A DNA stretch of 45,949 nucleotides, from contig JAFGCQ010000006.1 of assembly GCA_016932555.1 (NCBI GenBank), positions 1 to 45,949 on the forward strand, written 5' to 3'. The notes beneath the pieces are model-generated. The model had not been told where the DNA came from and searched no databases. It saw only the letters and a list, made by a program, of their open reading frames with translations. Positions 12,587 to 22,301 of the stretch are shown here, piece after piece. This DNA is from Candidatus Zambryskiibacteriota bacterium (lineage in GTDB: Bacteria > Patescibacteriota > Minisyncoccia > Phycocordibacterales > WO2-35-19). The position numbers and the translations under genes are program-made. Numbering within the stretch: the stretch's first letter is position 1; the number at the start of each line of letters is the position of its first letter.

Positions 12587-13570
12587 CTATTTTTTCAAAG
12601 TCTTTTTGATGAGGTGAGAGAGAAATTCTTTAATATTAGAGCCAGCCGCTTCCAGAGCTTTCATAAATGCACCCCTGTGAGAAAGCTCCGGCAGAGTATT
12701 AACTTCCAGAACAAAAAGGCCACGGCGGGAATGATGTATAAAATCAGAGCGGGAATAGTGTCTAAGTCCCAAAGTTTGGTGTATTAATTTAGTAGCTTCA
12801 CGGATTTGTTCTTTTTCTTCTGGGCTTAAACCATAGGGCAAATGATATTTCCCCAGATCTAAATACTTAGAATCATAATCATGAAATTTCCTTGCTTTAT
12901 CTGGAATGACACTGATAGGTACTGTGGTATATAAATCTTGATCTCGGAAACCATCAATCACACCACAAGTCACTTCCTTGCCACTAATATATTCCTCAAC
13001 TAAAGCTCGTGACGAATATTCAAAAGCTCTTTCCAAACCCCGTCGAATATCGAAGGCCTTATCAACAAATGAGGTACCCAAAGAAGATCCCTGATTATGG
13101 GGCTTTATTATAATAGGAAAGATGAGATTTTCGTTTATATGATTTACTGCGCCAGTCGGAATCTCTCCATCTTCTTTCATTTCTACGATCATATACATAG
13201 GAGTTTTGAGCCCTGCCTGGCTTAGAATTTTTTTAGTCAAAATTTTGTTCATCCCCAGCCTCGAACTCATTGCATCAGAGCCAGTGTAAGGAATACCGAA
13301 ATGGTCAAGCATTTTTTGCACCGTACCATCTTCGCCATAAGTGCCGTGCAATGCATTAATCGCCATATCCAAACTTTTCAAAATCGTATAAGGATCGCGT
13401 TCTAAGCCCGAAACATGCCAGATTCCGTCTTTAGAAATAAAAATATCAATCGGCTCGCAATCTTCTGGCAGATTAGAAAGAACGGCACGGCCGGTGTTTA
13501 GCGACACGTCATATTCAGGCGAAGGCCCTCCGCGTAATACTCCTACTCTAGTTTTATGAGAAAATGCCAT
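12587..13570 (-). CDS. ddl: D-alanine--D-alanine ligase
   Basis: RVGVLRGGPSPEYDVSLNTG, ALHGTYGEDGTVQ, ATP-grasp motifs IIKPHNQGSSLGT, FVLEVNTLPEL. Start at ATG 13570, 6 nt downstream of a TATAAT box. Confidence 0.93.
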   Translation of the reverse strand: MAFSHKTRVGVLRGGPSPEYDVSLNTGRAVLSNLPEDCEPIDIFISKDGIWHVSGLERDPYTILKSLDMAINALHGTYGEDGTVQKMLDHFGIPYTGSDAMSSRLGMNKILTKKILSQAGLKTPMYMIVEMKEDGEIPTGAVNHINENLIFPIIIKPHNQGSSLGTSFVDKAFDIRRGLERAFEYSSRALVEEYISGKEVTCGVIDGFRDQDLYTTVPISVIPDKARKFHDYDSKYLDLGKYHLPYGLSPEEKEQIREATKLIHQTLGLRHYSRSDFIHHSRRGLFVLEVNTLPELSHRGAFMKALEAAGSNIKEFLSHLIKKTLKK

Positions 13571-16332: not shown

Positions 16333-17079
16333 TTACTCAATAATCTCTAGTTGTTCCACATTAACGCCACGCTCACTCATCTGACCATAGATAAAAACTT
16401 TTGTTGCTTCTGTAAATTGATCTGGTTTGCATACAGATTTACTTTCGTCTAAACTAGTGCACTGGCTTTCTGAATTAAAGAAAAGTGGCACTACATGACC
16501 AGGTGTATTATTTTCTTCAAATATCAAATGCCAATCTTTAGAATCGTAGGGGGAAGGGATTGAGTCTTTTAGTAAATAACCCTCTCTTTCAAAACTAAAT
16601 TCTCGCTCGGGTGCAAATTCTCCAAGTGAACATTGAATATTGTCGATATACCAACCGTCGTTATATTTCACCAGCGTGACGATTGCTTGTTCAGTTACTG
16701 TTTTATCTTTTGATGTAACAAGTATTTCTGCTTCATCTGCTGTATTTGACACGGTTCTTGTGGAAATATTTTCCGGTATTACTGTTTGACATAAAACTGG
16801 ATCAAGAGTTGTATTTGGTTGTTTTAACGCATCTACAAGTTGATTTCTTAATTCTTTACTCAAAATTGGTGACTTAGCCAAAGTTGCTCTGTTCGGTTCT
16901 GTGGTTAGTTGTTGCGCCGCCATAAGCCACCCATCATAAAAATTTTTGACAGTATCTGTAGCATCCAATTTTGATACTTGTTGTTCATTTGAACCTTTAA
17001 TAAATAAAATAAATACTACAGCAAGAACTATAATTATTCCGATAATTACCGTTTTTTTCATCCCATTAGAAGTTTCCAT
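16333..17079 (-). CDS. Hypothetical membrane-anchored extracytoplasmic protein (DUF3828-like)
   Basis: N-terminal TM helix, then DTVKNFYDGWLMAAQ...NDGWYIDNIQC. Confidence 0.6.
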   Translation of the reverse strand: METSNGMKKTVIIGIIIVLAVVFILFIKGSNEQQVSKLDATDTVKNFYDGWLMAAQQLTTEPNRATLAKSPILSKELRNQLVDALKQPNTTLDPVLCQTVIPENISTRTVSNTADEAEILVTSKDKTVTEQAIVTLVKYNDGWYIDNIQCSLGEFAPEREFSFEREGYLLKDSIPSPYDSKDWHLIFEENNTPGHVVPLFFNSESQCTSLDESKSVCKPDQFTEATKVFIYGQMSERGVNVEQLEIIE

Positions 17080-17252
17080 ATGTTTTTATTAAAAATATTA
17101 ATCTTACTATTCTACAGATTTTAAACTATTTTTATCTTTATTTCAAATTGGCTGGCCACATATGTCTAGTACCTGTGTCGGTAGACCCTATAAGTTTATA
17201 TTAACAAATTTTCCAGACATAATTTCGTTCTATGCAGGCTATAAAATTCATA

Positions 17253-17291
17253 GCCGTGAGCGGAGCGAGTGCAACGAGCGAAGTCGAACGG
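17253..17291. repeat. GAGCGAAG-type extragenic imperfect inverted repeat next to tRNA-Gln
   Basis: GCCGTGAGCGGAGCGAGTGCAACGAGCGAAGTCGAACGGC, outer arms GCCGT/ACGGC. Confidence 0.45.
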
Positions 17292-17362
17292 CTGCCGGAC
17301 TTGGACTCGAACCAAGATACTCGCCTCCAAAGGGCGATGTCCTACCATTAGACGATCCGGCA
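17292..17362 (-). tRNA. tRNA-Gln (anticodon UUG)
   Basis: Minus strand TGCCGGA...TCGCC-CTTTGGA-GGCGA...GGTTCGAGTCC...TCCGGCA-G. Confidence 0.93.
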
Positions 17363-20820: not shown

Positions 20821-21471
20821 ATGATAGCTTTGGGAGCAGAAAGGATAAAAATGATGCTAGAGAGAGAAGTTGGTATAATTTTGGATTTTCTCATTGATGC
20901 TGTGCCAGAAAAAAAACTTCCAAAAGCAGACGGGGTTTTTGGTTTTGGCCATGTTGATAGTAGGGTAGCCGAGCAGATAGTAAAAATCTTTTTAGCCGGC
21001 AAAGCAGAAAAGATTATAATTTCTGGCGGCAAAAGGGAAACAAATCGGGTACCAAACGGATTTTCATCAGAGGCCGAGTATCTCAATTCCATAATAATGA
21101 AATATGGGGTGTTGGGCAATATTTTAGAAGAAATGGCCTCAAACACTTTGGAAAATGTTTTATTCGGGATGGAAGCCGCTTATCAAGTCGGTTTTTACCC
21201 AAGATCTCTCATTTTGGTGGCAATGCCGCCGCTACTTCGCCGTTCTCGAGCAACCTTTGCCAAACAATTTCCGAAAATTACGACTTTTGGCAGCGCTTTC
21301 CCGTTTGAAAAAAGCGAGTGGCAAAGCCAGCGTCGCATTCGCAGGATACTAGCAGAAATTGATCGTTTGAAAATGTACGCAGACAAAGGAGATATAGCGG
21401 CTGTTCCGATTCCAATGCAAGTTATGTCTGCTTATCATTTTGTCTCTGCTCGTTTGAGCAAATATTACTAG
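20821..21471 (+). CDS. YdcF/SanA-like DUF218 family protein
   Basis: ADGVFGFGHVDSRVAEQIVKIFLAGKAEKIIISGGKRE...SSEAEYLNSIIMKYGV...ASNTLENVLFG. Confidence 0.85.
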   Translation: MIALGAERIKMMLEREVGIILDFLIDAVPEKKLPKADGVFGFGHVDSRVAEQIVKIFLAGKAEKIIISGGKRETNRVPNGFSSEAEYLNSIIMKYGVLGNILEEMASNTLENVLFGMEAAYQVGFYPRSLILVAMPPLLRRSRATFAKQFPKITTFGSAFPFEKSEWQSQRRIRRILAEIDRLKMYADKGDIAAVPIPMQVMSAYHFVSARLSKYY

Positions 21472-21633: not shown

Positions 21634-21845
21634 TAAAATAAAAACCAGTTCTTTCGAACTGGTTGTGGTGAGCGGGCAGTCTGGGTCACGCCAGCACCGT
21701 TTGAAGCTTGCCCTGCCGTTTAGGCCAATCGCGATATCTAATTGCTTTCGCCTTGATATCACCGTCCTATTATAGGAGAAACGGCTGGTAGTACAGAACT
21801 CCATTCATGGTAAAAAGCCATGCCGCTGCCCGCAAACCATTTTAT
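21634..21845 (-). ncRNA. Candidate compact structured ncRNA, about 200 nt, minus strand
   Basis: Closing stem GCGGGCAG/CTGCCCGC (21672-21679 with 21826-21833), internal CATGG/CCATG, TCCTAT/ATAGGA, GATATC/GATATC and CCAGC/GCTGG stems, terminator AACCAGTTC-GAAA-GAACTGGTTTTTATTTT on the minus strand; locally GC-richer than flanks. Confidence 0.7.
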
Positions 21846-21904
21846 TTTTATCAAGATTGATGTTTTTTGTAAAGGTGGATATGATAAATCTATGAAATAA
21901 AAAA

Positions 21905-21931
21905 GCGGCGAAGTCCTCAGGACTTCGCCGC
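21905..21931 (-). terminator. Rho-independent terminator
   Basis: GCGGCGAAGTCC-TGA-GGACTTCGCCGC-TTTTTT on the minus strand. Confidence 0.92.
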
Positions 21932-21953: not shown

Positions 21954-22301
21954 CTAGCGAGTGATCAAAAGTCGAATCGTCCCGTCTTCTGCCGGTTTCA
22001 ATCGAGTAATCATGGTTCGGCGTTTTTTCCGGTTGTCCTCATCTTTGACAATAACAGCCGTATCACCGGGTTCAGGAACAAACTGCGCAAGACGAAATAT
22101 GAGCATCGCTTGAAACTCGACGGGCATATGGGTTATTGTTTCAAACATATTGCTCGCTGTTGTCTCTACATGCAGTCTTTTGGGCCCCTGTACGAAAAGA
22201 AAAAAACAGCTATCAGAATCATTTTCTTCCGCGATTTCAAGCTTTTTTCGCAATGGTTCAAAATCTTTAAAGATTTTGTCTACATCTAACAAATTTTTCA
22301 T
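21954..22301 (-). CDS. Hypothetical protein, 115 aa
   Basis: SD AAGGAG, consensus promoter upstream, terminator downstream. Confidence 0.75.
   Translation of the reverse strand: MKNLLDVDKIFKDFEPLRKKLEIAEENDSDSCFFLFVQGPKRLHVETTASNMFETITHMPVEFQAMLIFRLAQFVPEPGDTAVIVKDEDNRKKRRTMITRLKPAEDGTIRLLITR

Follow-up and report, generated by a model that had tools for sequence, protein, structure and literature searches.

A candidate free-standing, GC-rich small RNA gene in an accessory island of a Candidatus Zambryskiibacteriota genome

The window analysed here (the whole stretch of DNA, 45,949 nt) carries on its minus strand a short GC-rich block with inverted ends and a terminator of its own, which is probably a real, independently transcribed and free-standing gene for a structured small RNA restricted to its species. 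The observations behind this reading are the anatomy of the locus, its compositional contrast with the surrounding DNA, its isolation from neighboring genes and its lack of detectable relatives. A minus-strand transcript of approximately 195–200 nt would start at a promoter of its own, stop at its own intrinsic terminator, and form a GC-rich rod or branched structure with its ends protected by an 8-bp closing stem. The RNA would probably act in trans, either as a regulator with a stable structure or as a protein-binding (decoy) RNA, and was probably acquired together with the accessory island in which it lies. A role in trans or in protein binding is the default expectation, because the RNA would be stable, no gene lies downstream and there is no long antisense target, the longest complementarity being equal to chance. 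No coding signal was found in the six frames of the block, and the genome contains no exact-repeat array that would suggest a CRISPR/tracrRNA link. The 608-kb genome belongs to the Parcubacteria group. Parcubacteria genomes comprise only 0.5–1 Mb of DNA and, to our knowledge, little is known about their non-coding RNAs; an independently transcribed RNA confined to the island of one species would suggest a quick turnover of small RNA genes even in reduced genomes. The features of the locus, in the direction of the minus strand, are as follows.

21905..21931, minus strand: intrinsic terminator of the upstream gene, 12-bp stem
21845..21873, minus strand: putative promoter-like -35/-10 pair, TTTACA-17-TAAAAA, a consensus match only
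21665..21838, minus strand: structured RNA body, ~174 nt including a possible outer UGGU/ACCA extension
21833-21672, minus strand: enclosed GC-rich block, 162 nt by direct sequence reading
21833-21826, minus strand: 5′ arm of the closing stem, GCGGGCAG, pair probability 0.99-1.0
21715..21785, minus strand: predicted apical domain, pair probabilities mostly 0.8-0.99
21679-21672, minus strand: 3′ arm of the closing stem, CTGCCCGC, pairing with GCGGGCAG over a perfect 8 bp
21664-21643, minus strand: the RNA's own intrinsic terminator, AACCAGTTC-GAAA-GAACTGGTT, 9-bp stem with a GAAA loop
17080..24376, no strand assigned: accessory island holding the RNA, ~7 kb

All of the elements named in the initial annotation are present on the minus strand by direct reading of the sequence, with some adjustments. 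The enclosed block exists, although it measures 162 nt rather than about 170 nt, and the terminator described as following it directly is separated from it by 7 nt and continues into a T-rich tract reaching ~21634. The promoter-like sequence is likewise present (TTTACA at 21873), but its putative -10 box, TAAAAA, is weak and matches only four of the six consensus positions; transcription from it is predicted to start near 21838, which yields the predicted length of ~195–200 nt. The upstream neighbor is a minus-strand gene (21954-22301, 115 aa) that ends before a terminator of its own; because this gene is separately terminated, the RNA is isolated from read-through. The downstream neighbor is a DUF218 gene (20821-21471), which has the opposite orientation and its own terminator. 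The upstream terminator and the opposing downstream gene together make the RNA free-standing, with no nearby minus-strand gene that it could lead.

The G+C content of the block is 0.53, compared with an average of 0.356 for the genome, and the flanks are poorer still (0.18 in the 66 nt upstream and 0.25 in the 146 nt downstream). Noncoding GC-rich segments of 160 nt make up 11 stretches in the 608-kb genome, among them the RNA locus, and most of the others are rRNA, tRNA or RNase P. Among 20,000 mononucleotide shuffles, 4 gave a GC-rich stem of at least 8 bp joining the two ends. When all 607,940 bases were scanned, 164 terminators were counted, and the RNA locus was the sole unit in noncoding DNA with a GC-rich closing stem of 8 bp or longer ahead of its terminator. 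For the whole transcript, the z of the fold is -4.9; without the terminator, the z against dinucleotide shuffles is -1.8, and 28 of 500 shuffles are as stable, so that stability in this part is only marginally above that of the shuffles. The impression of a compact stable fold is therefore due largely to the terminator and the closing stem. Moreover, the z obtained for the complementary strand (-3.0) is slightly better, which means that the assignment of the strand rests on the terminator and not on energy.

Within the predicted fold, the closing stem has pair probabilities near 1. The apical domain consists of a helix GCCGUUU/AAACGGC (21785-21779 / 21721-21715, minus strand; ~0.86 for most of its pairs) around a hairpin UCCUA-UAA-UAGGA (0.7-0.86) and the helix GUGAUAUC/GAUAUCGC (at least 0.9), the latter capped by GC-GAAA-GC. 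The annotated GATATC pair is found within this capped helix (21762-21755 / 21738-21731). The TCCTAT/ATAGGA pair is present, but only 5 bp can form around a 3-nt loop. Similarly, CCAGC/GCTGG occurs at 21788-21784 / 21695-21691, but as a helix it competes with the stronger GCCGTTT/AAACGGC, and the two are mutually exclusive because they share bases. The middle of the 171-nt RNA (positions 14-50 and 125-158) has two dissimilar solutions within 1 kcal/mol, namely a rod, which is the minimum-energy fold (-58.3 kcal/mol), and a branched form (-57.5); CATGG/CCATG, present at 21822-21818 / 21810-21806, is paired as a hairpin in the latter. A specific conserved fold, as the initial annotation envisaged, is thus not borne out, given that no homologue was found, the inner folding is ambiguous and the stability without the terminator is marginal.

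The genome of the same-genus sister, G001, is syntenic on both sides of the island (contig 11), but at the equivalent place it lacks the genes that the window has between 17.5 and 24.1 kb, and carries MacA/MacB-like ABC-transporter genes instead. The island contains orphan genes, an HD-domain gene, an excisionase-like HTH gene and a winged-helix gene; DUF218 is its only gene matched in G001, on another contig, and no such RNA adjoins that match. A tRNA-Gln gene (17290-17362) is located at the left edge of the island. Adjoining it is one copy (window 17250-17294) of a short GC-rich, AGCGAGCGTAGCGAGTCGAAGG-like repeat family, which has several copies (L091:13480-13760, 13075-13167 and 17001-17087).

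No DNA homologue of the RNA was found by blastn in 147 related genomes, phages, plasmids or E. coli, and no second copy was seen within its own genome. A single-sequence covariance model was run on three sets, comprising 197 order-level, 9 family-level and 387 class-level genomes, and detected no relative; the two weak matches that it gave, both in unrelated coding sequence with a short GQA..AGVTQ-like stretch in common, were taken as chance. Translated patterns searched in viral and genome contigs gave no relative, and a single 12-residue match was regarded as chance. In viral contigs, an exact 27-mer pattern had no match; a 20-mer had one, in probable coding DNA, which was attributed to chance; and a 16-mer had 90, in which the similarity did not extend beyond the pattern. 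The syntenic stretches of three further genomes (G002, G003 and G008) contain no match to the RNA, and none was present in the region examined of a G107 locus whose product is weakly related to the 115-aa protein encoded upstream. The sensitivity of blastn was calibrated between the source genome, G000, and G001, where it recovered RNase P RNA (E 3e-24), tmRNA (E 2e-20) and another RNA, encoded at the ndk locus (E 3e-8); a core RNA of the genus would thus be expected to be detectable too.

The Rfam check gave no match at gathering or permissive thresholds, and nothing lay near the cut-off. The initial annotation had recognized no RNase P, tmRNA, SRP, 6S or riboswitch signature. In this genome the usual housekeeping slots are filled by other RNAs or appear to have been lost, so that the window RNA is not a disguised RNase P RNA, tmRNA or SRP RNA, and probably not a 6S RNA either. 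The window RNA shows neither a match to the RNase P model nor a P4 core, and the true RNase P RNA lies elsewhere (G000:C23:13732-14067). It also lacks the alanine tRNA-like domain and tag frame of tmRNA, which is encoded at G000:C33:3697-4104. The GNRA-capped helix 8 with an AGCA/CAGG internal loop that marks SRP RNA is missing from it as well; a search of nine family genomes yielded no SRP RNA, the Ffh/FtsY GTPase motifs were not found in G000 or G001, and both the RNA and the proteins appear from the sequences to be absent from this lineage. This absence in G000 and G001 agrees with the SRP loss reported in Parcubacteria (PMC4508563). As for a riboswitch or attenuator, no regulated gene lies directly downstream on the same strand. 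A search with RF00013 identified no 6S RNA in G000 and left the window RNA unmatched; instead of a rod with a large central bubble conserved in relatives, the window RNA has two competing folds and was not found in the sister genomes.

A 6S-like RNA was observed in both G000 and G001, where it is flanked by ndk and by a gene for a small membrane protein.

L061:7346-7484, plus strand: ndk-locus RNA of G001, a 139-nt rod (z -7.4) from the terminator scan
L075 about 16174-16020 (G000:C14 near 56.0-56.2 kb), minus strand: its counterpart in G000, found by blastn

This RNA forms a long rod with an A/U-rich central bubble and its own terminator, and it has no match in Rfam. The closing stems are 10–13 bp long and pair in both genomes with differing sequences (GAGTCGCTCA/TGAGCGACTC in G001 and GTAGGATTGTTTG/CAAACAATCCTAC in G000), and the parts conserved between the two are the A/U-rich middle and GAGG.CACCCACCT. 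By shape and position, without a family match, it is a better 6S candidate than the window RNA, and with it the main reason for calling the window RNA 6S is gone. Since Rfam does not recognize it, this ndk-locus RNA could close a gap among the 6S RNAs described so far.

Two other GC-rich stretches were noted in the genome. One (L041:2205-2475, in G000:C9) is ~270 nt long, GC-rich (to 0.57), structured and apparently noncoding; its ends are closed by GATCCGTG/CACGGATC, and the minus strand has a terminator-like hairpin. Neither Rfam, at E 1, nor G001 gave a match to it. The other (L095:17950-18430, in G000:C33 near 38 kb) is a GC-rich, leader-like region just before a small gene, and ends in a hammerhead-type motif, CTGATGAGTCCAAAAGGACGAAAC, which scores 24.5 bits with RF00008, below the cut-off. 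Short genes in a phage- or plasmid-like layout surround it, and two more GATGAG-type motifs lie nearby.

The chief rival to a small RNA gene, which we regard as unlikely, is a GC-rich island remnant, that is, a decayed and non-functional fragment of a mobile element or foreign gene, in which chance 8-bp inverted ends and a high G+C content imitate an RNA gene. Its location in the accessory island, its single copy without relatives and a core stability barely above that of shuffles fit a remnant, and GC-rich DNA within an AT-rich genome can be foreign. However, neither a target-site duplication nor a second copy was seen, the six frames hold no trace of a protein, and a clean terminator, like the placement of the block between two terminators, is more in keeping with an RNA gene. 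An improbable extension of the RNA-gene reading is that the locus represents a new class of structured RNA, e.g., a ribozyme or a small-ribonucleoprotein RNA, that travels with Parcubacteria accessory islands and has been sampled too rarely for anyone to have described it.

That the window RNA is a highly diverged 6S RNA seems very improbable. Its size, its stable closing stem and its rod-like minimum-energy fold would suit one, as would the failure of RF00013 to find any 6S RNA in the genome, but the much better candidate lies beside ndk in both G000 and G001, and the window RNA is undetectable in the sister, although a core RNA should be present there. A small protein gene under selection hardly comes into consideration, even though a 65-codon frame open from an ATG exists (21804-21607), for this frame has no ribosome-binding site, crosses the terminator hairpin and matches nothing in Pfam, and, apart from the 12-residue chance match, phages, viral contigs and genomes yielded no homologue of it. 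We attach equally little weight to a riboswitch or other cis-acting leader: the arrangement does resemble an attenuator, in that a terminator hairpin comes after a compact fold, but the next possible minus-strand gene is ~2 kb away, past a convergent gene with its own terminator.

The free-standing small RNA gene proposed here shares traits with several known systems. Like RNase P RNA, tmRNA and SRP RNA, it would produce a GC-rich stable RNA with a terminal stem in an AT-rich genome; by contrast, the first two of these are encoded elsewhere in this genome and the third is seemingly absent from the lineage. 6S RNA, whose rod-like shape imitates an open promoter, acts as a decoy that binds the sigma-70 RNA polymerase and templates a product RNA. 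The window RNA is similar to it in length, in its strong closing stem and in being encoded by a free-standing gene, whereas it has no RF00013 match and no clear single-stranded central bubble, and its inner fold is ambiguous. Finally, there is the general kind of free-standing, structured intergenic sRNAs with intrinsic terminators, such as the GC-rich DIMPL-type candidates (PMC8723152). Conservation and covariation are the usual criteria for these, whereas the window RNA has no known relatives; nevertheless, it has in common with them a GC-rich block, a promoter-like site, a terminator and secondary structure.
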